Origin: Metabacillus litoralis
GTDB taxonomy: Bacteria > Bacillota > Bacilli > Bacillales > Bacillaceae
DNA: 64,000 nucleotides
Assembly (NCBI RefSeq): GCF_003667825.1
Contig: NZ_CP033043.1
Coordinates: 2,461,501 to 2,525,500 of the forward strand
Direction: 5' to 3'
In this document: positions 1-11,821 of the stretch, in pieces
Layout of the letters: the number at the start of each line of letters is the position of its first letter
How positions within the stretch are numbered: position 1 is the stretch's first letter
Made by a program: the position numbers and the translations under genes
Notes under the pieces: model-generated
What the model was told of the DNA's origin: nothing
What the model saw: the letters and a program-made list of their open reading frames with translations, nothing else
Database searches by the model: none

Positions 1-1100
1 AAAAAAACGTTTGAACACTCCAATGAATCATTAATATTAATTTTATCAATTCTTTTCTCCTTGATGCTTACAAGACCACCTAAGTCCTGAGATTTATTGC
101 TAGATTCTTGAAGCTCCATAATTTTCTCAACAGCAGGCATGGCAGATGATATGTTTTCTAAATTTGATTGTATACCTGTGAAACGAGGCCATAAACGAGT
201 AAAAATCATAATAATCAATAACATTAATGCTCCATCACTCTGAAAAAAATTAAAAGATATATAAATAAATAAAGCAATCATCATAGTGGAAAATAGCTTA
301 TAAGTCAGTTTTGAATTACTGCGAACTTTTGCGCTTTCATATCTTTCATTTGCAACAAGATCAGACCAAGTGGATAACCATCTATATTGTGAAGCCTCTA
401 ATAAGTTACTTTTAATATCTTTAACACCATTAAAATGATCTGAAATTCCTGCTAAATATCTTTGAGATAATTCATTCATTACCTTCCCTAATTCCCTGGA
501 CCTTCTAAAAAAACTTTTAGATAAGAAGGTTATAATCAATCCACAACATAAAACAAAAAGTGTCATCTTAACAGAGACAAACAATGCAATTACAATTTGA
601 ATTACTGTGAAAACAAGGGAGGCTAAAAATTGTAATAATAAAAATGTGCTGTTCGTTACTCTTCCAAGTTCAGAAGTAAGAGAATTGACTAAATCTGACT
701 TTCTTCTTTTGGTGAAAAATTCCCAATCCGCCTTCAACAAAGAGCAATAAAGATCTAATCGAATATGATTTATAAAACCAGTATGAATTCTTATTTCTCT
801 TAATCCTATATTTCTAGAAAGGAGGGCCTGACTTGATACCAAGATTACATAGAAAAATAAAATGATAAGTAAGGCTTGTTCTGTCGGGATATTTTCTAGA
901 AAATTAAATACTTGAATACCTGGTATATCATTTATACTTATCTCGACAATCCCAATTGCACTTAATAATGGTATAAGCAATAAGATTCCAGCACTTTCTA
1001 AAAGCCCCATTAACATACTTCCAAATAGATTGATATATAGTATTTTCCCTGAATAGTTATGAAGTTTTCTTAAGAAAACTAATAATGGTGATAGTTTCAT
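1..1100 (-). CDS. ABC transporter, lasso-peptide exporter (D protein), 3' part cut by window edge
   Basis: The frame opens with ATG at 1100, two bases after the B2 stop, and stays open to the window edge (366 residues visible). It begins MKLSPLLVFLRKL and contains several long hydrophobic segments spread over residues 20-270, as in the membrane domain of an ABC exporter. The nucleotide-binding domain would lie left of position 1. Its place at the end of the lasso genes suggests that it exports, and gives immunity to, the mature lasso peptide. Family membership is inferred from the transmembrane pattern and context, because no Walker motif is visible here. Confidence 0.75.
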   Translation of the reverse strand, partial: MKLSPLLVFLRKLHNYSGKILYINLFGSMLMGLLESAGILLLIPLLSAIGIVEISINDIPGIQVFNFLENIPTEQALLIILFFYVILVSSQALLSRNIGLREIRIHTGFINHIRLDLYCSLLKADWEFFTKRRKSDLVNSLTSELGRVTNSTFLLLQFLASLVFTVIQIVIALFVSVKMTLFVLCCGLIITFLSKSFFRRSRELGKVMNELSQRYLAGISDHFNGVKDIKSNLLEASQYRWLSTWSDLVANERYESAKVRSNSKLTYKLFSTMMIALFIYISFNFFQSDGALMLLIIMIFTRLWPRFTGIQSNLENISSAMPAVEKIMELQESSNKSQDLGGLVSIKEKRIDKININDSLECSNVF

Positions 1101-1101
1101 C

Positions 1102-1575
1102 TTATTTTCCACCCACAAGATTTGTCATTTTCGCAAATTTACCAGTGACCGTGAATCTATACATCTCCTCATAACCGGTCACATACATTGAACCACTCCT
1201 TAACCAAGCATGAGCAATCATTTTACCATTCTCATCTGTACCTGTTCCTAAATAAAGGGTACTATCTATGTTACGTCTTTCTAGCATCTTTAGTGCTGCA
1301 ATAGCCCTAACTAAGCATTTACTTTCCCAAAAGGTATACTTACTCATAACTTGAATTGAATGTCGAATATGTTTCAATTTACTATTATGACTTTCTGTAT
1401 CCTCTACTTTTGTTTCCTTCATATATACACCGAGAGAGAGCGCTAATTTTGAAAATGGGAGATACATTAGTTGAAACCGAGCCCACCCTAGATAAAGGAA
1501 GGCTTCTATTAATAAACCTATTGTCGTTAAGTCCAAACTCATAAGAACCTTAAATTTTCCTATCATATATTTCAC
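1102..1575 (-). CDS. Lasso peptide biosynthesis B2 protein (transglutaminase-like leader peptidase)
   Basis: 157 residues, the usual size of a stand-alone B2 protein. The cysteine-protease core is visible: Cys87 in ESKCLVRA and His122 in AHAWL, the order and spacing of the transglutaminase-like family that removes the leader of lasso precursors. A hydrophobic stretch lies in the N-terminal 40 residues. It overlaps the kinase stop by four bases, so the two are translationally coupled. B2 normally works with a PqqD-like B1 protein; no B1 domain is fused here and none is seen between the neighbours. Confidence 0.87.
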   Translation of the reverse strand: MKYMIGKFKVLMSLDLTTIGLLIEAFLYLGWARFQLMYLPFSKLALSLGVYMKETKVEDTESHNSKLKHIRHSIQVMSKYTFWESKCLVRAIAALKMLERRNIDSTLYLGTGTDENGKMIAHAWLRSGSMYVTGYEEMYRFTVTGKFAKMTNLVGGK

Positions 1576-2534
1576 CTATTTACTATTATTTCATTTTGAG
1601 TATTAGTATTGTTTCCTGAACTATTAATTTCTGTTAGTATCTTCTCAACAATCTGGAAAGCAGAGAATCCTGTTTCTGGCCTTTTAATTTGATAAAAAGG
1701 AAGACGCTCTGCTAATAAAGTGGATTTAATAAAATGCCATTTAGTTAAATTTAGTTTAGGAATAAGAAATTGGCGATATGTATGTGTAAAGAGTTTCTGC
1801 AGTAAATCAAGTCCATGTATAGGATGGATAGAAATTGAATCACCATTCGTTTTAACTAGTTCAAAAATTCCACCTAGAGGAAGCTGTGTTGTATGGAAAT
1901 TTTTTATTACCGGCTTACAAAATTTACTTTCCCTTCCATAAATCGGTCTCAGTTTTTCGTTACTAATACCAAAAGCGTCGAGGCTTTGCTGCCAAAGCTT
2001 TTGCTGTGGATAAGAAGGGATTACGATTGGAAGATTTTCCTTTGAAAACTTGACTGCTATAACATCATCACTTAACAATTGATATCCCCTTTCCATAAAA
2101 GCTGAAGCAAGTGTGGATTTTCCGGCTCCTGAGTCACCTATAATGGCAAAAGCTTTACCATCTATTACAATAGCACTACCATGTAAAGGATAAATACCTC
2201 TCTGAAGCAGCAAAGCCCCGAAGCTAGAGCCTAATAAATATAATCGAATAATATCCTGGTTAGCTCCTTCAAAAGGAGAAACTGTTATCTCCTTACCATC
2301 TTTAACTTGGAAAATCGCAATCTCAGGTACCATAAATGTAACAGTTTGATTTTCTACCAAAAACTCAAAGGGTCTACTTTTAAAACAATTTTTAAGGCTT
2401 GTGTTTATCTTAATTTCAATATCAGCAGCTTCAGAATATCTCCGTTGTATTAGCTCTTGCAAAATAATCTCACTCTTAATAGTTAGACCAAATGCTTTAT
2501 ACATGTTATATTTAGTAGTTTCCAAAATTCTCAC
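1572..2534 (-). CDS. HPr-kinase-like lasso peptide kinase
   Basis: 320 residues. The kinase core resembles HPr kinase/phosphorylase: LHGSA near residue 117, P-loop GDSGAGKS at 133-140, then LLSDDV near 153-158. Homologues in paeninodin-type clusters phosphorylate the side chain of the C-terminal Ser of the lasso precursor (established for that family). The precursor encoded just upstream does end in Ser, which supports the assignment. The gene starts about 80 bases after the precursor stop, beyond short inverted repeats (around 2557-2586) that might attenuate transcription so that precursor exceeds enzyme. It is unlikely to be the housekeeping HprK because of its N-terminal region and its cluster. 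Confidence 0.87.
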   Translation of the reverse strand: MRILETTKYNMYKAFGLTIKSEIILQELIQRRYSEAADIEIKINTSLKNCFKSRPFEFLVENQTVTFMVPEIAIFQVKDGKEITVSPFEGANQDIIRLYLLGSSFGALLLQRGIYPLHGSAIVIDGKAFAIIGDSGAGKSTLASAFMERGYQLLSDDVIAVKFSKENLPIVIPSYPQQKLWQQSLDAFGISNEKLRPIYGRESKFCKPVIKNFHTTQLPLGGIFELVKTNGDSISIHPIHGLDLLQKLFTHTYRQFLIPKLNLTKWHFIKSTLLAERLPFYQIKRPETGFSAFQIVEKILTEINSSGNNTNTQNEIIVNR

Positions 2535-2612
2535 TCCAAATAAAATTCAATTATATAAGGGAGAAGCCCTTACACAGGTGTATAAGAGCCTTTAACCATG
2601 TTAATTTCAACC

Positions 2613-2771
2613 TTAGCTTTCATGATGTGGTACTAATTTGCCATCAGGCTTTCTTCTTGTTTGGTCACCATTATAAGCTTCATCGTGTTCTGGCTCATCG
2701 TAAGTAGCAGCTTCAGTCATATTTATGTTAAGAAACTCGAACTTAGGCTGTGCCCATGCTTTTTTCGTCAA
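2613..2771 (-). CDS. Lasso peptide precursor, 52 aa, C-terminal Ser
   Basis: A TTG start at 2771 follows a strong GGAGGTG ribosome site, five bases after the cyclase stop. The product has 52 residues. The leader MTKKAWAQPKFEFLNINMTE resembles paeninodin-type leaders (KK-W-x-x-P, hydrophobic L-x-I/V, then MT), with the conserved Thr at position -2. The inferred core is 32 residues, starts AATYDEPEHDEAYNG and ends LVPHHES. An isopeptide between Ala1 and Glu8 would give an 8-residue ring. The terminal Ser is the expected substrate of the adjacent kinase. The core is long for a lasso peptide, acidic at the front and basic (TRRKPDGK) in the tail. The cleavage site is inferred from the Thr rule, not shown. 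Confidence 0.85.
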   Translation of the reverse strand: MTKKAWAQPKFEFLNINMTEAATYDEPEHDEAYNGDQTRRKPDGKLVPHHES

Positions 2772-2776
2772 ATTAT

Positions 2777-4717
2777 TCACCTCCCTTCATTATTAATGAA
2801 ACGGTAAAGGACAAGGCTATCCATTAATATCTTTAGATGCCTTGAATACGCATGTTGAGGTTTGACAGGCTCATGTAAGCATTCTTGAGCATCTAGTAAT
2901 TTCTCTTCATTAACAATCTCCATAAATGCCTTATCGTTACACATGGTTGAAACCTCATATGTAAAATCATTCCATCTCGGGATAATACGGTGCACCCAAT
3001 CCACACCTTGAACCCCTCTAACTCTCATATTTAGACGAACATTATCAGGTAAATAGTTTTCAGTTGCTCTTCTAATCAAGGCACGATTCAGCCCATTTTG
3101 AACATATTGCTCGTGTGGTATTGACATACAAAACCTTATTACTCTTAAATCATTGGTCGGATCTCGTTTCCAAACTGAGTAATGTAAAGACAATTTTGCT
3201 GCAAGTGAATTACTAGCATTCCACTGGAATAACTGTTCAAAATGTTGTTTACGAAGAGCAACTGAGTCTTTTATTAAAGATTGCCCTGTTTTGTCAATTT
3301 CATATAGGTTCCTCAGCTTATCATATACACGAGTCCGATTTGCAAATTCCTGATTAATAAGTGGCGTATGAGTAGTTGATAAATTAGAATTTCTTTGTAA
3401 TATTGGAAAAGCTTGATTTAGAACTGACGACAATATGGTTTTCCGTCCAGAGCCAACATTATTACTAAATGACTTTACCTCCGATAAAAGTCGAACCCAC
3501 TTAAATCGTTTTAGTAGCTGAGCATAGAATGGAAAGGCATCTCCCCAAGAGATTGAAAGATTGCCTCGACCACCATTAAGTAGTATTCCAATATCCATTT
3601 TGTTAGCTTGTTCAAACATTCCTTTTAACCAAAAAGAATTAACATAAAACTTATAGGGTGTTTCCATATGACTCATCACACTATCAATTTCTGAATATGA
3701 ATCCCTTCCCTCAAAGTCAAAATAGTGATCTTTTAATCCCCCTATATAATTTACAGTCGATTTAATATATGGTTTTTCATTTGCTACTAAGTGTTTAGGA
3801 GTATAATCAGTAAAATCACTAGGCGGTATGTAACTAAAAGTATGTAATTGTTTATTTTGTTTTTTTAATTCTCTTGCAGCGAAGCTAACGATAGAACCTG
3901 AATCAAGCCCACCACTTAACTGTGCTCCAACTGTCTTATAAGTTCTTATTCGAGAAGAAACAGCCTGTTGAAACACTTCTTGAAAAGCTTCGATATATTC
4001 ATTATTAGAAAGGTTCTGAAGAGAACTTTCCCATTTTAAATACTTATATTGCTTTAATGAAACTTTCCCATTTTGTACTGTTATACTATGCGCAGGAGGT
4101 AATTGTTTGATTTCCTTATAGGGAGTAATGGATGTATCAGCCACATCTACCATTCCAGCAATGACTAGGAATTCAGCTATCCATTCTTGGTTCAATACAC
4201 TACTAATATATGGAAGACTTAATAAAGGTTTAATAGTTGTGCAAAAGGTAAACTGTGTGAGGTCGCTATTGTAGTAGAGTGTCCTGCCTCCAGAGAAGTC
4301 TCTAGCACCGAATAACTTTTGCCTTTTTTCATCCCAAATCACAAAAGCAAAGTCACCAACTAAATATTCAGGACAATCGTCTCCCCATTTTTTATATGCT
4401 TGGAGAATTAAATAACTATCTGGGATCGTTTTTCTTTTATTTTCACTTATTTGAAGTTTCTCAAAAAGTTCTACCCTATTATCGATAATCGCATCTGAGG
4501 TTATGACCATTCCCTGTTCTACATCATAAAATGGTAGCATTTCATCTACTGATTCTGGAGTAATCCACTGTGCATGGCAACCAAGAAATACTTCATCTTT
4601 TATCCACACCTGAGTGTCATCAGCTGGAAAATGTAATAACGAATCCATTATCCTTTTGTAGTGATCTGTGTTTATTGGTTCTTTATTCATTTGATAAATA
4701 CCAGCTATTGCACTCAT
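2777..4717 (-). CDS. Lasso cyclase (C protein), asparagine synthase family
   Basis: 646 residues. An N-terminal class II glutaminase-like domain is followed by the synthetase domain with the ATP-binding motif SGGLDSGS at 268-275. The protein starts MSAIAGIY, so the catalytic Cys that follows Met in true glutamine-dependent asparagine synthases is replaced by Ser. This fits the lasso C proteins, which adenylate the ring Asp/Glu side chain and form the macrolactam. It is first in the lasso operon, and the precursor begins five bases after its stop. A promoter and two SinR-like palindromes lie upstream. Confidence 0.87.
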   Translation of the reverse strand: MSAIAGIYQMNKEPINTDHYKRIMDSLLHFPADDTQVWIKDEVFLGCHAQWITPESVDEMLPFYDVEQGMVITSDAIIDNRVELFEKLQISENKRKTIPDSYLILQAYKKWGDDCPEYLVGDFAFVIWDEKRQKLFGARDFSGGRTLYYNSDLTQFTFCTTIKPLLSLPYISSVLNQEWIAEFLVIAGMVDVADTSITPYKEIKQLPPAHSITVQNGKVSLKQYKYLKWESSLQNLSNNEYIEAFQEVFQQAVSSRIRTYKTVGAQLSGGLDSGSIVSFAARELKKQNKQLHTFSYIPPSDFTDYTPKHLVANEKPYIKSTVNYIGGLKDHYFDFEGRDSYSEIDSVMSHMETPYKFYVNSFWLKGMFEQANKMDIGILLNGGRGNLSISWGDAFPFYAQLLKRFKWVRLLSEVKSFSNNVGSGRKTILSSVLNQAFPILQRNSNLSTTHTPLINQEFANRTRVYDKLRNLYEIDKTGQSLIKDSVALRKQHFEQLFQWNASNSLAAKLSLHYSVWKRDPTNDLRVIRFCMSIPHEQYVQNGLNRALIRRATENYLPDNVRLNMRVRGVQGVDWVHRIIPRWNDFTYEVSTMCNDKAFMEIVNEEKLLDAQECLHEPVKPQHAYSRHLKILMDSLVLYRFINNEGR

Positions 4718-4904: not shown

Positions 4905-5792
4905 TTAATCACTTCTTTGTATTTTAAAATTAATATATTTATTTAATATTACCCCTAATGGCAGTGCAAAAATAGTTAACAATTTTTGAGGAGATTGCAT
5001 TGTTAGACTCCTACTCTCTGTAAATAAACTACAAGACACATAATGCACTGCCTGCTTAAACTTAAAAGTTAAAGAAGTATTAGGCAACTTCATCATTTCC
5101 ATACGATAAAATCTAAAACCGTTTGCACTATTTCTATATTGTCGGAAGATATTCATAGATGATCCATCAGGTAGATACTCAACTACACATAGTGGTTCAT
5201 TTAGCAGTAGCAATTCACATTCAAGATCTAGCATAAAATATTTATATGACAAGGGGACTAATTTTTCATTAGGAAACACTGGATAAGGAAACTTCTTTGA
5301 TAGCTCTGTTCGATATACAATCTTTTTATCACCTTTAACCCCTTTTTTTTGATATAGGTTAAATAAGGTTGATTTCTTCAGCTCTGCTGGTAATTTTGTC
5401 CCGATAATGTCACCATTACTTTTGCAATCGAGCCCTATCATACCTCCTACTTCATTACTACCATGTTTTCTCCAAAATGAGATAATCTTTTCAATAGCAT
5501 CATCTGGCATATAATCATCGCTATCAATACAAACATTTAATTCTGTATCTATTAAGCTATACGCAGTATTATGAGCACCATGCATCCCTTGGTTTTCCTG
5601 CTTAAAATAACTGATTGAAATATCATTATCCTTGATCCAACTGTTAACTAGTTCTTCAGTGTTATCAGACGATCCATCATCAATAATTAACCATATAAAC
5701 TCCTTATTTGTTTGCCTTTTAAGGCTTTCATAACACTGATGAAGAATATATCCACGATTAAATGTAGGTGTAAAAACTGTTAAAATTGGCAA
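4905..5792 (-). CDS. Glycosyltransferase family 2
   Basis: A GT-A fold GT2 enzyme of 295 residues using the TTG at 5792, which has an AGGTG site six bases away and gives the typical N-terminus MPILTVFTPTFNRG; an upstream GTG (5801) is less likely. It shows the nucleotide-sugar motif IIDDGSSDNT and a CIDSDDYM motif in place of DxD near residue 95. It probably adds one sugar to the lipid-linked repeat unit. It is the last eps gene before the lasso promoter, and its start lies just past the stop of the preceding GT4 gene. Sugar specificity cannot be read. Confidence 0.85.
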   Translation of the reverse strand: MPILTVFTPTFNRGYILHQCYESLKRQTNKEFIWLIIDDGSSDNTEELVNSWIKDNDISISYFKQENQGMHGAHNTAYSLIDTELNVCIDSDDYMPDDAIEKIISFWRKHGSNEVGGMIGLDCKSNGDIIGTKLPAELKKSTLFNLYQKKGVKGDKKIVYRTELSKKFPYPVFPNEKLVPLSYKYFMLDLECELLLLNEPLCVVEYLPDGSSMNIFRQYRNSANGFRFYRMEMMKLPNTSLTFKFKQAVHYVSCSLFTESRSLTMQSPQKLLTIFALPLGVILNKYINFKIQRSD

Positions 5793-5797
5793 GAAAA

Positions 5798-6910
5798 TCA
5801 CCTCGTTTTTGACAGATAAAAGTCTTGCAGCCAGCTTGTTGTGCTTTTAATATCATAGCCCCGTTCTCTAATCTGGTTTATTTTAATTTTATTTAGCTCT
5901 CTTTGTTTAGGATTTAGATCCCTCAGCTCAGAGACCCACAAATCAATATTTTCAATGTTTAAATATTTAATTAATCCTAATCCTAGGTCCACTTCAGCTG
6001 TAATTTTATTTGAAATTACACAAGGTACACCTGCTGCCTGTGCCTCAATAAGTGTCACAGGTAAACCTTCGTGCAAAGAAGGAAATAAAAATACATCAAA
6101 TGCTTGAAGTAATTGGTTTATATCACTTCTAACACCTAAAAATTTAATATTTTCATGTATATTTAATATTTTTGCTTTATTTTCAATTTCATCTCTTAGG
6201 AAACCGTCACCACATAACAACAAGATAGCATTAGGTCTTCTTTTTAAAACATCAGCAAAAACCTCAATTAAAAACTGATGATTTTTCTGCTTCGTAAATC
6301 GTCCTATATGACCAATGACTAATTGTGAATCATGAATTCCTAGCTCATTCCTTTTCATCTTTCTTACATCTGGAGAATAATGAAAAGTCTCCACTTCTAT
6401 TCCATTGTTAAGTAGCTTTACATCATTTGATTTACTTCTAAATAGCCATTTAGCAGCAGCTTCTGAACAAGCAAAATTAAAGTCTGAGTTCGACCGAATA
6501 TATAAACCGGAATACCATTTATACGACTGAGCCAGAAAACTTCCTTCTCCACCTGTGTTATGACTATGGGTTATACAGTATTTCACTCCAAATTTTTTGG
6601 CTGACCGTACCACTAATCCACTCATTTTATTTAAATGTGTATGTACGATCTTATAATTACTATATTTTGAGAAGAAATTGTTCAAGGCCTTAATATAACC
6701 AAAATGACCTGCTTCACTAACATATGGGATTCTATGAACAATTCCACCGAGTTGTTTAATTTCTGAATCAAAAACCCCTTCTTTACAAGTTAAAAAATCA
6801 AATTGCACTTTTGACCGGTCGATATTTCTATATAAATTCATGATGAGTGTCTCTGCCCCACCTCTGTTCATATTGACTACTACATGTAGAATTCTAATAG
6901 GTTTTGTCAT
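5798..6910 (-). CDS. Glycosyltransferase family 4 (EpsF-like)
   Basis: 370 residues, GT-B fold. The N-terminal domain opens RILHVVVNMNRGGAETLIMNLY, and the C-terminal domain carries IGHIGRFTKQKNH and the ExxxxxxxE-type loop HEGLPVTLIEAQAAG. This profile is typical of EpsF-like retaining transferases in exopolysaccharide clusters. ATG at 6910 has a GGGAGG site. It is co-transcribed with the neighbouring GT2 and epimerase genes. Donor and acceptor are unknown. Confidence 0.85.
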   Translation of the reverse strand: MTKPIRILHVVVNMNRGGAETLIMNLYRNIDRSKVQFDFLTCKEGVFDSEIKQLGGIVHRIPYVSEAGHFGYIKALNNFFSKYSNYKIVHTHLNKMSGLVVRSAKKFGVKYCITHSHNTGGEGSFLAQSYKWYSGLYIRSNSDFNFACSEAAAKWLFRSKSNDVKLLNNGIEVETFHYSPDVRKMKRNELGIHDSQLVIGHIGRFTKQKNHQFLIEVFADVLKRRPNAILLLCGDGFLRDEIENKAKILNIHENIKFLGVRSDINQLLQAFDVFLFPSLHEGLPVTLIEAQAAGVPCVISNKITAEVDLGLGLIKYLNIENIDLWVSELRDLNPKQRELNKIKINQIRERGYDIKSTTSWLQDFYLSKTR

Positions 6911-6940
6911 TTACAATCCTCCCGGTCAACTATCAAAATC

Positions 6941-7933
6941 TTAAACGACTTTTAAAGCTTTTAAATCCGCTTTATACCAATCTATCGCAGCTTCAATTCC
7001 TTTTTCAAAACTCCATTCTGGATCATAGCCTAATAGCTCTTTAGCTTTGGATATATCAGCATTACTATGCTTAATATCTCCCCTTCTTTCGGGACCAAAT
7101 ATAGGTTGTATATCTTTTCCTAATGCTTGTGTTAAATGGTAGTAGATATCAATTAAAAACTCTCTACCTCCATAAGCAATATTAAAAACCTTTCCAGCTG
7201 CCTCACTATTTGCCTTACAAGCCTTTAAATTAGCTTCAATAACATTTTCAATATAGGTAAAATCCCTACTTTGTTTTCCATCTCCGTTAATGACTGGTTG
7301 CTTATCATTCAGCAGCTGCTTAATAAACTTTGGAATAACCGCTGCATATGCTCCATCAGGGTCTTGTCTCTTTCCGAATACATTAAAATATCTTAAGCCA
7401 TAGGTATCAAGGTCATAAAGACTTGTGTACAGACGGGCATATTCCTCATCTGATTTTTTAGTAAGCGCATATGGCGACAATACTTTTCCCTCTCTTCCCT
7501 CCTGTTTAGGCAAAGTGGGTTCATCTCCGTATACAGAGGAACTTGATGCATAGACAAACTTTTTCACACCATTTTGTCTAGCCGCCTCCAGCATATTCAA
7601 AGTACCTTTTAGATTTATTTCTTCATATAATAGTGGTAATTCAATGCTTCTTGGAACACTTCCCCATGCAGCTTGATGAAGCACAAAATCTACACCATCA
7701 CATGCCTTCATGCATGTATCAAGGTCACGAATATCTCCTTCAACAAATTCATAGTTAGGATGATGAAGAAATAAATCTACATTTTCTTTTTTACCAGTAG
7801 AGAGGTTATCAAGTCCTCTAACTTGGTAGCCTAAGTTGATAATGGCTTCAACTAAATTAGACCCAATAAATCCAGCTGACCCTGTTACTAAAAACTTTGT
7901 TTTCTCTGGAAAGCTAATATTTTGATATCCCAT
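6941..7933 (-). CDS. UDP-N-acetylglucosamine 4-epimerase-like SDR
   Basis: About 330 residues, extended short-chain dehydrogenase. The NAD-binding motif GSAGFIGSN is near the N-terminus and the catalytic SSSSVYG...SPYALTKK region (Ser, Tyr-x3-Lys) is in the middle. HQAAWGSVPRSIELP resembles the WbpP/TviC group, which interconverts UDP-GlcNAc and UDP-GalNAc (or the uronic forms). ATG at 7933 is preferred because GGAGGT precedes it by eight bases; a TTG 15 bases upstream would sit on top of that site. It supplies a precursor for the polymer, with the exact substrate inferred. Confidence 0.82.
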   Translation of the reverse strand: MGYQNISFPEKTKFLVTGSAGFIGSNLVEAIINLGYQVRGLDNLSTGKKENVDLFLHHPNYEFVEGDIRDLDTCMKACDGVDFVLHQAAWGSVPRSIELPLLYEEINLKGTLNMLEAARQNGVKKFVYASSSSVYGDEPTLPKQEGREGKVLSPYALTKKSDEEYARLYTSLYDLDTYGLRYFNVFGKRQDPDGAYAAVIPKFIKQLLNDKQPVINGDGKQSRDFTYIENVIEANLKACKANSEAAGKVFNIAYGGREFLIDIYYHLTQALGKDIQPIFGPERRGDIKHSNADISKAKELLGYDPEWSFEKGIEAAIDWYKADLKALKVV

Positions 7934-7969
7934 ACTTATAACCTCCAATGGTATTTAAAAGTAACTTTA

Positions 7970-9088
7970 CTATTTAGTAGTATTCTTTTTCCAAATTTTA
8001 CTTGCAACCTCATTAATTTCATCTAAATAAGCATTTATCACAATCCTTCGGTCATATTCCCGTTCCATTTTTGTCCGCCCAGCAATTCCCATTGCTTGCT
8101 TTTGTTCATAAGGCATGCTTATAAACTTTTCGATGGTATCAACTAAGCTATTTACATTTTTTACTTCAAACCCTAAACCTGTGATTTCCTCATCAAAGGT
8201 TTCTTTACAACCCGGAACTCTCGTGGCGAGAACGGGACGACCAGCTGATGCTGATTCAAGGAGTACATTCGCTGTTCCTTCATGATAGGAAGGTAGGATG
8301 GTAGCATGTGATTTCTTAATAAAAGAATGGACTTCTTGTTGTTGGCCATGGTAGGTAATTACATTCAAACTTTGGAGATCTTTTAATTGGTGTTGGTAAT
8401 CTTCTTCACAACCACCAACTAAGTCGAATTGTGTATTGGGAAATTTCCTTTTAATGATGCTAGCTGCTTGGAGGAGTTCATCGATGCCTTTTGCTTTCAT
8501 CATCCTTCCGATAAAAAGGAACCTAATGGTGTGATCTTCCTCAGGATATTTTTCAAGTGAATGGAGGTGTATGTTTACACCAGAACCAGGAACTAGCCTA
8601 GTTTTGTTTTTTACGATCTTATTCTTTATAAAGAACTTTAAATTGTTATCATTTTGAAAAAATAAGCAAGAGGAATCTTTAAGACCTATTTTATAGAGGG
8701 ACATCGTAAACTTTAGGATCTTACTCTTACTCTCAAGTGCAGTACCTAACCCTGTTATATTGGTAATATACGGGGTATTGGTCACTCTACATGCAAGACC
8801 ACCGTAGACATTTGGCTTAATCGTATAGGTTAGGACAAGGTTCGGTTTTATTTCCTTAATAAGCTTAATATAATGAAGGAATAGCTTTGTGTCTTTAAGA
8901 GGATTAGTTCCTCTCCTCTCGAGTTCAGTCTCTAAATATTGACAGCCTAAACTTTTAAGTTTTATTACATATTCATCATGAGGCAAGGAAATGTAAACTT
9001 CGTTACCTTGTTTAATTAGCTCCGCTAATAACTCTTTTCTAAAGTTGTATAGTCCCATACCGAAGTTTGCTAATATTAGGATTTTCAT
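7970..9088 (-). CDS. Glycosyltransferase family 4 (EpsD-like)
   Basis: About 372 residues from the ATG at 9088 (AGGGAG site), giving the family N-terminus MKILILANFGMGLYNFRKEL. A longer reading to 9160 would run through an operator and is rejected. C-terminal motifs include FLFIGRMMKAKGIDEL and the donor-binding loop SYHEGTANVLLESASAGRP. It resembles EpsD/WbpL-neighbour GT4 enzymes. It is first in a sub-operon with its own promoter (9210-9238) and two SinR-type palindromes. Confidence 0.85.
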   Translation of the reverse strand: MKILILANFGMGLYNFRKELLAELIKQGNEVYISLPHDEYVIKLKSLGCQYLETELERRGTNPLKDTKLFLHYIKLIKEIKPNLVLTYTIKPNVYGGLACRVTNTPYITNITGLGTALESKSKILKFTMSLYKIGLKDSSCLFFQNDNNLKFFIKNKIVKNKTRLVPGSGVNIHLHSLEKYPEEDHTIRFLFIGRMMKAKGIDELLQAASIIKRKFPNTQFDLVGGCEEDYQHQLKDLQSLNVITYHGQQQEVHSFIKKSHATILPSYHEGTANVLLESASAGRPVLATRVPGCKETFDEEITGLGFEVKNVNSLVDTIEKFISMPYEQKQAMGIAGRTKMEREYDRRIVINAYLDEINEVASKIWKKNTTK

Positions 9089-9142
9089 TATTAAACTCTC
9101 CCTATACAAAACATGTATAACGGCTTCAAACTCGTCTAGGTG

Positions 9143-9158
9143 GTTCTTTAATAAGAAC
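9143..9158. promoter_or_regulatory. SinR-type operator (copy 2 of this promoter)
   Basis: GTTCTTTAATAAGAAC fits GTTC-N8-GAAC exactly and lies in the leader between the promoter at 9210-9238 and the GT4 start at 9088. Confidence 0.55.
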
Positions 9159-9193
9159 AATCAAACATAAAAAAATAAACATTTTAACTTAAT

Positions 9194-9209
9194 GTTCTCT
9201 ATAATGAAC
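9194..9209. promoter_or_regulatory. SinR-type operator at internal eps promoter
   Basis: GTTCTCTATAATGAAC, a 16-bp palindrome of the recurrent family, abuts the -10 box of the promoter at 9210-9238. A repressor bound here would block the start of transcription. Confidence 0.65.
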
Positions 9210-9238
9210 ATGATATATTGGACCCACCTTAATGTCAA
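9210..9238 (-). promoter_or_regulatory. Sigma-A-type internal promoter for the distal eps genes
   Basis: Minus strand: perfect TTGACA (9238-9233), 17-base spacer, TATCAT (9215-9210), then immediately the palindrome at 9194-9209. It would drive GT4, epimerase, GT4 and GT2 (9088 to 4905). Confidence 0.65.
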
Positions 9239-9259
9239 GAATATATTTATACTATTTAA

Positions 9260-10354
9260 TTAGTCTATATGTGCAACTGAGTAACCCTCTATCTGGGTTT
9301 TAAACTCCTTAAGGTAGACTTTTAAATTTTCTTCAGTTACTAAATATTTATTTCTCCCGAAAGACTCTAGAATAAATTTATTCACGTCTGGGTGGTGGTG
9401 CATTGTATCTTTGTATAGGCTCAGGTTATGTGTAATATCCTTTTCTGTTGTAAAATCGTAAATCTTTACGTTTGGGTAAGTCTGTAATTGAGTGAAGAAA
9501 TACTCCCTACTTTTAATAATATCCTCCATTATTTGATTATCGACATAGTAAAAACGTTTATTCATTAGGATTGAATATGGAGGATAATAGAAATAAAAAT
9601 TTGTCTCAGGGTTACTTATAACATAGGGTAGAATATTATTGTCAATATTTTCCTTAAACTTACTAAAATTAAATTGTTTTTGTAAGTCATTTTTAGTTTC
9701 TTTTATCTCTTTTATCTCTTGAAAATAATCAGCTCTTACTATTTCTTCTCCATATTGAAAAAGATCTCCCCAGTAACTTAAACGATTTAAGTCTTGATTA
9801 GGCTGATCCTTTAAATTGAGAAAGTATAAAGATAATTCAGCACGTTCAGGTGCAAATTTATAGAATGCTGAAGCTAGGCTATATTTTATGGTGGTAATAT
9901 TAAACAAATAATTCAAATCATTAAAAATATTGTTATCATAAAGAAATATAGGAAATTCCTCAGTTAATTTTTCATCTTTACTTAGAGATGTATAATCAAT
10001 TCCCCAAATAACATTTTTTATTTCTTTGTTACTAAATGCCAAATTTGCTATCAGACTTTGTTCATGAGTTGAAGAACCTGACATTGATAACTTTAACGTT
10101 TTTGCTCCTTGGAATTGTCGATCAACTTCACTTGGAATAAAGTTTTCTGTCATTGAGGTTCCTAATATTACTGTGTTATAGTCATAATTTTTTGCGAGAC
10201 CTGCTAATTGCCACCTTTGTTCTCCCCAGTAAACTGCATCTCTTTCTTTCACTCGATAAAATTGTAACGGGTCAACTACAAAGTTAATCGATACCAAGAT
10301 GACAGAGAATATAAGTATCAACGCAGCTGTCATTCTAATCCATCTTTTATTCAA
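9260..10354 (-). CDS. Membrane-anchored SGNH-like protein, partner of MBOAT acyltransferase
   Basis: 364 residues with one N-terminal membrane anchor (residues 8-28, LILIFSVILVSINFV), so the body is expected outside the cell. A GTSMTEN motif near residue 65 and a late KDTMHHHPDVN segment could supply the Ser and Asp/His of an AlgJ/DltD-like SGNH hydrolase fold. It lies directly after the MBOAT gene, the usual pairing in polysaccharide O-acetylation. The role is inferred from the pairing, since fold recognition was not possible here. TTG start; GGGAG lies ten bases away. Confidence 0.7.
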   Translation of the reverse strand: MNKRWIRMTAALILIFSVILVSINFVVDPLQFYRVKERDAVYWGEQRWQLAGLAKNYDYNTVILGTSMTENFIPSEVDRQFQGAKTLKLSMSGSSTHEQSLIANLAFSNKEIKNVIWGIDYTSLSKDEKLTEEFPIFLYDNNIFNDLNYLFNITTIKYSLASAFYKFAPERAELSLYFLNLKDQPNQDLNRLSYWGDLFQYGEEIVRADYFQEIKEIKETKNDLQKQFNFSKFKENIDNNILPYVISNPETNFYFYYPPYSILMNKRFYYVDNQIMEDIIKSREYFFTQLQTYPNVKIYDFTTEKDITHNLSLYKDTMHHHPDVNKFILESFGRNKYLVTEENLKVYLKEFKTQIEGYSVAHID

Positions 10355-10372
10355 TTTTAATAGACTCCCTTT

Positions 10373-11821
10373 TTAAAAGTTAAAATATAAAAACTCACTT
10401 ATTTTGTTAAAATTTAAAATGCAGTATACAATAGCAACAGTTATAAATACTGAAGTTAATATATTAGGCCTAAAAGTATTTGTCATTGTATTTGAATTTT
10501 TACAAAAAATAATAATGATTAATGCAATAAGCAAATATGGAGCAATTCTTAATAATTCGCTTAAATCGATAAAATAAGAGCCTAATGTAAATCCATAGCT
10601 TTCAACAAAGGAAAGAATCTCAAAGCTCGGTAACACAATTCCGTTAAACCCAAACATTCCTTTTAGAACTTTAATTGCATCCCCCCAAGTTGTGGCTCTA
10701 AAAAATACCCATGCTATATTTACAAAATTAAATGTAATAAACCAGGCTACAATTTTATTCAACTTAATTCCTTGTGCTTTCCAAAATCGATTTATGACAG
10801 TTGCTATTCCATGTAAAAGGCCCCAAAAAACAAATGTCCAACCAGCACCATGCCAGAAGCCACTAATTAAAAAAATAATTAATATATTAATATAGGTTCT
10901 ATTTTTTCCTTTTCTATTTCCACCAAGAGGTATATAAATGTATTGGGTTAAAAAACGGCTAAGTGTAATATGCCATCTTCTCCAAAAGTCTTGTATATCC
11001 AAAGCCTTATATGGAGAATTAAAATTTATAGGCAGTTTAATGTTAAAAAGAAGTGCAGCTCCAATAGCCATGTCTGTATATCCACTGAAATCAAAGTATA
11101 ATTGTATAGTATAAGATAAAGAGGTAATCCAACCTTCCACAAATGTAAGTGTTTCAGTTTCATCAAAACCCTTAGTTGCCCAAACTGCAAAAGAATCAGC
11201 TATTACTACTTTCTTAAATAATCCTATAGAAAAAACAAATATACCTAAAGCGATATTCTGATAATCAATAACTTTATTTTTCAATTTTTCAAATTGAGGC
11301 ATCATTTCTTTATGATGAACAATTGGGCCTGCAATTAATTGCGGAAAGAATGTTACGAATAATGCATAATTTAAAAAATCATATTCCTTTGTTTCATTTC
11401 TATATGCATCTACCAGATAAGCTATTTGTTGAAATGTGAAGAAACTAATGGCTAAAGGCAGAGCAAGCTTCAACAGTGGCATATTTGTAGAAAATAAACC
11501 ATTAACATTAGAAATAAAAAAATCAGAGTACTTATAAATACCAAGTAATATAACATTGAATAGAATTCCTAATGTTAAAACTATTTTTCTATTAATTCTT
11601 AAATTTTCTCTACCTAATTTAGTTCCAATAGCATAGTTAATAAACATTGATATTAGAATTAAAGGTAAGTACGCTACATTCCACCAACTATAAAAGAATA
11701 ATGAACTAGCTACTAGCCATGCCTTAGAAGCAAGAATTAGTCTACTTTTATTTAGAAGGAAATAGATGATAAACACTATTGGTAAAAATGCAAAGATAAA
11801 TTCAAATGAGTTAAATAACAT
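10373..11821 (-). CDS. MBOAT family O-acyltransferase (AlgI-like)
   Basis: 482 residues with about ten membrane segments. The MBOAT signature is clear: DFWRRWHITLSRFL followed by the invariant His in SGFWHGAGW. AlgI/DltB-type enzymes hand an acyl group, usually acetyl, across the membrane to an extracellular partner. With the SGNH-like protein downstream it should O-acetylate the exopolysaccharide. DltB is an unlikely alternative because no dltA, dltC or dltD is present and the setting is an eps operon. Confidence 0.9.
   Translation of the reverse strand: MLFNSFEFIFAFLPIVFIIYFLLNKSRLILASKAWLVASSLFFYSWWNVAYLPLILISMFINYAIGTKLGRENLRINRKIVLTLGILFNVILLGIYKYSDFFISNVNGLFSTNMPLLKLALPLAISFFTFQQIAYLVDAYRNETKEYDFLNYALFVTFFPQLIAGPIVHHKEMMPQFEKLKNKVIDYQNIALGIFVFSIGLFKKVVIADSFAVWATKGFDETETLTFVEGWITSLSYTIQLYFDFSGYTDMAIGAALLFNIKLPINFNSPYKALDIQDFWRRWHITLSRFLTQYIYIPLGGNRKGKNRTYINILIIFLISGFWHGAGWTFVFWGLLHGIATVINRFWKAQGIKLNKIVAWFITFNFVNIAWVFFRATTWGDAIKVLKGMFGFNGIVLPSFEILSFVESYGFTLGSYFIDLSELLRIAPYLLIALIIIIFCKNSNTMTNTFRPNILTSVFITVAIVYCILNFNKISEFLYFNF

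Follow-up and report, generated by a model that had tools for sequence, protein, structure and literature searches.

Which acidic residue closes the ring of the lasso peptide encoded at the left end of this Metabacillus litoralis sequence? The window, that is, the whole stretch of 64,000 nucleotides that was analyzed (contig NZ_CP033043.1, positions 2,461,501 to 2,525,500), carries on its minus strand the genes C (lasso macrolactam cyclase), A (precursor), K (peptide kinase), B2 (leader peptidase) and D (exporter), which a first-pass annotation had identified as a paeninodin-type cluster with a dedicated kinase. The gene set, the precursor motif and the conserved kinase residues all agreed with this identity. 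Judged from its sequence, the locus is a real and complete paeninodin-type cluster that is ordinary as a cluster, and we are nearly certain that it is a lasso peptide cluster. The new element is a displaced ring-closing Asp, which the annotation overlooked. We propose that the window belongs to a cyclase clade with an acceptor Asp shifted outwards by one residue relative to that of paeninodin, whose ring closes at Asp9. In the window this residue would be Asp10 (codon at 2682..2684, minus strand), which the sequence comparisons below make the probable acceptor, and from the same comparisons we lean slightly towards a ring of ten residues. The available portions of the literature place the ring acid at core positions 7-9 (PMC10368454, PMC8498205), and the part of a June 2026 review that was available gives 7, 8 and 9 residues for structurally characterized lasso rings. 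In the open-licence literature we found no natural ten-residue lasso ring. The only one mentioned belongs to a fusilassin/fuscanodin analogue, produced in vitro, that the available text (PMC8498205) does not present as a natural product; because that analogue has the ring size predicted here, the size is possible.

To place the window precursor among its relatives, we searched with K, which returned 259 relatives, and retained the best 80 loci. Small open reading frames (ORFs) with a W/YxxP motif and a Thr at Trp+13 numbered 105 and occurred in 79 of these loci, L063 being the one without a precursor-like ORF. A cyclase gene lay directly upstream of 95 of them, and with the window these made 96 precursor-cyclase pairs; the 10 ORFs with no upstream cyclase, several of which are not precursors, were left out (L004 12820, L022 13486, L027 13494, L033 13496, one on the minus strand of L036, L040 10905, L050 10903 and 11713, L053 3886 and L068 12759). 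Asp stood at core position 9 in 70 of the 96 pairs (D9 type) and at position 10 in the other 26, including the window (D10 type), and 18 of these 26 precursors had neither Asp nor Glu at 7, 8 or 9. In an alignment of 20 of the 96 precursors (16 D10 and 4 D9, the L025 row being one residue short), W, P, L, T and the ring Asp formed the invariant columns, the T being the penultimate leader residue, and the D9 rows showed a one-residue gap inside the ring. A profile of these precursors retrieved 421 matches from a protein collection, of which 120 were examined with no demand for Thr at Trp+13. This Thr was nevertheless present in all 120, and Asp occupied position 10 in 106, 91 of them with no acid at 7-9; as the query leaned towards D10 and several of the 120 were query rows themselves, these counts are no measure of the share of D10 in the family. 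The published numbering of PbaA (W-15, P-12, L-10 and K-18, in the available part of PMC13381572) fits the precursor of L082, whose sole acid within positions 7-10 falls at 10.

The cyclases followed this division. In the phylogeny of all 96, the label 9 or 10 required 2 changes, whereas shuffled labels required 23.0 on average, and the best tree found with all 26 D10 cyclases as one clade lay 24.9 log units above the free quick tree (approximately unbiased test, p-AU 0.84). A group of 10 D9 rows that fell on the D10 side of the tree had been considered as a reversal, and this idea was dropped because the single-clade D10 tree makes a reversal unnecessary. The alignment columns with the clearest difference between D10 and D9 cyclases (Leu387, Leu411 and Val618) may reflect shared ancestry only and were not used as evidence. 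In addition, precursors of both types, D9 and D10, precede one K-B1-B2 set in three loci (L072, L075 and L083), B1 being the presumed leader-binding protein; every precursor there is paired with a separate cyclase, and the Trp-to-Thr spacing is the same in both types. Each of these genomes contained one B2-family match and two cyclases; the B1-family matches numbered 1, 1 and 2, the second in the L083 genome being a weak one that falls on another contig, inside an open frame of 433 aa. With one peptidase for both precursors and an equal leader spacing, the simplest reading is an identical cut followed by a different ring. Since the 18 precursors lack an acid at 7-9, the cyclases split likewise and one B2 serves both types, we predict that a specialized clade of cyclases in Bacilli makes natural lasso peptides whose rings have ten residues, a family that went unnoticed because an acid at 7-9 was expected, and that one peptidase in some bacteria feeds both nine- and ten-residue-ring cyclases; the chances for and against this wider prediction appear to us evenly balanced.

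Several observations weigh against a ten-residue ring. The 96 pairs are not independent, because they share ancestry and some of them a genome. The position of the leader cut was deduced from Thr(-2), and for D10-type precursors no mapped cleavage site was found. If the leader were cut one residue later, leaving Thr at -3, Ala2 and Asp9 would form an ordinary nine-residue ring, which would give the D10-type precursors a known ring size. The B2 proteins do partly sort by Asp position, less cleanly than the cyclases (4 changes over 73 single-state rows), and their tree fails to separate such a shift from a ten-residue ring. For this reason a peptidase with a shifted cut is disfavored mainly by the three genomes in which precursors of both types, equal in Trp-to-Thr spacing, depend on a single B2; these genomes are drafts of unstated completeness in which a second B2 might be missed, and part of another nucleotidyltransferase gene is visible at the left edge of L075. 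Residue 1 is A in 88 and L in 14 of the 106 D10-type proteins, against S, D, A, N, T, H or Q at residue 2, and the available text of PMC10368454 reports Thr(-2) for all earlier precursors. On balance, we regard a shifted cut as unlikely. Finally, one-residue changes of ring size reduce yield in other systems, according to the available part of PMC13352647.

The window core also carries a Glu8 (codon at 2688..2690, minus strand), which counts against Asp10 as well: position 8 is a canonical one for the ring acid, and all 10 distinct relatives with a core of the same type (L004-L007, P0003-P0007 and P0036) carry Glu or Asp there. With the canonical cut, Glu8 could close an eight-residue ring in the window peptide, and Asp10 would then be conserved for another reason, such as the fold or the fit of the tail. 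However, the acid common to the clade is Asp10, and the window cyclase falls within a 14-row D10 group (Shimodaira-Hasegawa-like approximate likelihood ratio test, SH-aLRT, 99) together with 9 partners whose precursors have only Asp10. The Asp of the HDEAYNG stretch in the window aligns with Asp9 of L017, and L017, L018 and L042 share the HDEAY stretch but have His8. Moreover, position 10 is Asp and never Glu in all 106 D10-type proteins, while residues 5 and 6 vary. An eight-residue ring thus seems to us improbable.

A third possibility is that the peptide is not cyclized at all, being a linear phosphopeptide like the one expected from the adjacent linear-polyphosphorylated-peptide (LPP) cluster, or that the cluster is silent. 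Products of the related pba cluster were sought in the native host, Paenibacillus alginolyticus, and none was assignable, for which the authors mention possible unknown modifications (in the available text of PMC13381572); this result also speaks against a ten-residue ring. Nevertheless, the reading frame of C is intact, its SGGLDS motif is invariant in the cyclase alignment and its predicted fold is confident. Comparison with the precursor of L005 showed purifying selection on the core: the two cores differ at 1 of 32 residues (proportion of nonsynonymous differences, pN, 0.03; of synonymous differences, pS, 0.62), while the leaders differ at 9 of the 18 residues compared (pN 0.23) and the cyclases are 66% identical. 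We therefore consider this third possibility very improbable. All 10 pairs formed by the window, L004, L005, L006 and L007 were more alike in the core than in the leader, whereas among six AGPG-type precursors this was so in 3 of 15 pairs and the reverse held in 12. So constant a core suggests one fixed partner or role. The window precursor was found in only 1 of the 80 family genomes, namely that of the window itself, and the distribution of the cluster is thus patchy.

Returning to Asp10 as the acceptor, we envisage the following pathway, each chemical step of which we infer. B1 would bind the WxxP leader, K would phosphorylate the terminal Ser of the precursor, and B2 would cleave after Thr(-2)-Glu(-1). 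C would then activate the side chain of Asp10 and couple it to the Ala1 amino group, so that a macrolactam ring of ten residues is formed, followed by a loop and tail of 22 residues. The neighboring nucleotidyltransferase may put a sugar on the phosphate, and D would export the product, predicted to be a C-terminally phosphorylated lasso peptide with no disulfides.

An HPr-kinase-like enzyme beside the precursor, as the annotation had claimed, was recovered here: K (1572..2534, minus strand, 320 aa) matched Pfam Hpr_kinase_C with 34.6 bits, above the cut-off of 33.3. Its residues H118, G133, G136, G138, K139, S140, D156 and D157 were invariant in 82 of 82 aligned kinases, and the His, P-loop (GKS) and DD residues are those named in the available parts of PMC9266682 and PMC10368454. 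The last residue was Ser in 95 of the 96 cyclase-linked precursors, including the window's, with Cys as the exception, and likewise in all 120 examined of the 421 matches in the protein collection. We hold phosphorylation of Ser to be highly probable. The related kinases BsfK and LppK phosphorylate Ser3 of the core instead (PMC13381572 and PMC10368454, as available), and core residue 3 is Thr in the window, so the terminal Ser is very likely but not certain to be the site of K. A gene for a calcineurin-like phosphoesterase (L084:12933-13892, L084 being the 17.7-kb genome stretch that supplied the sequence left of the window) adjoins the cluster, and matches of at least 49% identity were present in 14 of the 80 kinase loci; it is a possible partner that trims or removes the phosphate.

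The precursor itself (A, 2613..2771, minus strand) had been described as a 52-residue protein starting with TTG, with a WxxP leader, a Thr at -2 and a C-terminal Ser, and each of these features is present. The TTG at 2771 lies six bases downstream of the GGGAGGTG stretch, the upstream GTG (2780) falls inside that stretch, and protein P0001 of the collection is the same 52-aa form. The leader of 20 aa (2712..2771) precedes a core of 32 aa, AATYDEPEHDEAYNGDQTRRKPDGKLVPHHES (2616..2711, boundary deduced from Thr(-2)). The remark that this gene is easy to miss was only partly upheld. The PadeA family model NF033524 gave 25.3 bits, 1.7 under the cut-off of 27, but the 52-aa form is already in the protein collection, so not every gene finder misses it. 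The low score is probably an effect of the edge of the model, because the precursor of the relative L005, one core residue away from the window's, reaches 34.6.

The order C-A-K-B2-D on one strand, also noted at first pass, was confirmed from the ORF list at the left end of the window, from C (2777..4717) to D (1..1118), and the whole set became C-A-K-B2-D-B1-N when the sequence to the left was added. C encodes 646 aa with an asparagine-synthetase fold. It scored 416.6 bits against the NCBIfam lasso cyclase model NF033535, below the cut-off of 525. Its AlphaFold2 model, built on an alignment of 54 of the 96 rows, had a mean predicted local distance difference test (pLDDT) value of 92.6 and found 7ylz as its best Foldseek match (template modelling (TM) score 0.72 by query length); among solved structures matching C by sequence at E <= 1e-5, there was no lasso cyclase. 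B2 (1102..1575, minus strand, 157 aa) matched NF033537 with 103.1 bits, above the cut-off of 33. Its C87 and H122 are kept in 76 of 77 aligned rows, the remaining row being gapped there, and it was the sole Transglut_core3 match in the whole genome. The ATP-binding cassette (ABC) exporter D is cut by the window edge and has 609 aa when complete (L084:15789-17618). To the left follow B1 (L084:15336-15629, or G000:C1:2460336-2460629), with 124 bits to NF033536 (cut-off 80), and the nucleotidyltransferase N (L084:14095-15264), with 202 bits to PF14907. A, B1, B2 and C thus occur together, B1 and B2 scoring over their NCBIfam cut-offs and C under. In most of the 80 loci B1 stands between K and B2, but in L005, L006 and the window genome it follows D.

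The cluster was also compared with known systems as described in the available portions of their sources. Compared by description, the paeninodin cluster of Paenibacillus dendritiformis C454 (PadeA/C/K/B1/B2/D) resembles that of the window in having B1 and B2 as separate genes, an HPr-like kinase, an ABC exporter and a precursor ending in Ser, while the window differs by its Asp10 and Glu8, its core of 32 aa and the position of B1 after D. The pba and lpp clusters of P. alginolyticus DSM 5050 (PMC13381572; L082) have the same enzymes, an adjacent LPP cluster, a D10-type precursor and, around the cluster, polysaccharide genes as in the window, whereas the pba core has 25 aa (LDPKNGNHLDHAY...) and the gene order is different. 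B1 of the window is identical to PbaB1 at 12 of 15 checked positions of the RiPP recognition element (RRE), differing by I44T, D68E and E70D, and retains E75, Q79 and F83 of the Trp-selective RRE pocket. The pseudomycoidin cluster of Bacillus pseudomycoides, compared by description, likewise combines a kinase with a nucleotidyltransferase, and two reviews describe a phosphate followed by a hexose.

To the left of the window, on the opposite strand to the lasso genes, lies the LPP cluster (L084:7381-12096), which encodes a precursor, a PqqD protein, a homologue of archaeal-type signal peptidases (TIGR02228, 60.3 bits against a cut-off of 51.85), a D-like ABC exporter, a second PF14907 protein and, where the LPP kinase would be expected, a protein with a weak P-loop match to AAA_29 (19.8 bits, under the cut-off). 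These genes correspond to the LPP gene set of PMC13381572, in whose available text LPP and paeninodin-type clusters are often found together in polysaccharide loci of Bacilli, so the arrangement is already known. To the right of the lasso cluster (window 4905-11821) are polysaccharide-type genes for glycosyltransferases, a sugar epimerase and a membrane-bound O-acyltransferase (MBOAT). In the LPP precursor of this genome (L084:7381-7590), Asp replaces the Tyr of the RRE motif that is present in the other 8 precursors found, and in its LppB (L084:8418-8702), Ser replaces Asp70, which is D or E in the other 10 LppB proteins compared. Asp70 of LppB is reported to hydrogen-bond the Tyr of the motif (PMC13381572, available part), and the two replacements are possibly a matched change of specificity. 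A second gene set in L004 (12820-16451) encodes a kinase, a B1, an exporter and a precursor in which a WxxP/Thr(-2) leader is followed by a core of Gly-Ser-Asp repeats with a final Ser, and no cyclase or B2 was detected in this set; the first cluster of L004 shows no B1 of its own. Could this second set produce a linear phosphopeptide with a lasso-type leader?

Ring size limits which tail can thread and lock. If the prediction is true, a natural ten-residue family would widen the lasso fold, and cyclases already suited to larger rings would be on offer. Searches that expect the acid at 7-9 would then misassign or miss the ring of D10 peptides. Loci where a D9 and a D10 cyclase accompany the same peptidase allow the question of ring size to be addressed directly within a single genome.

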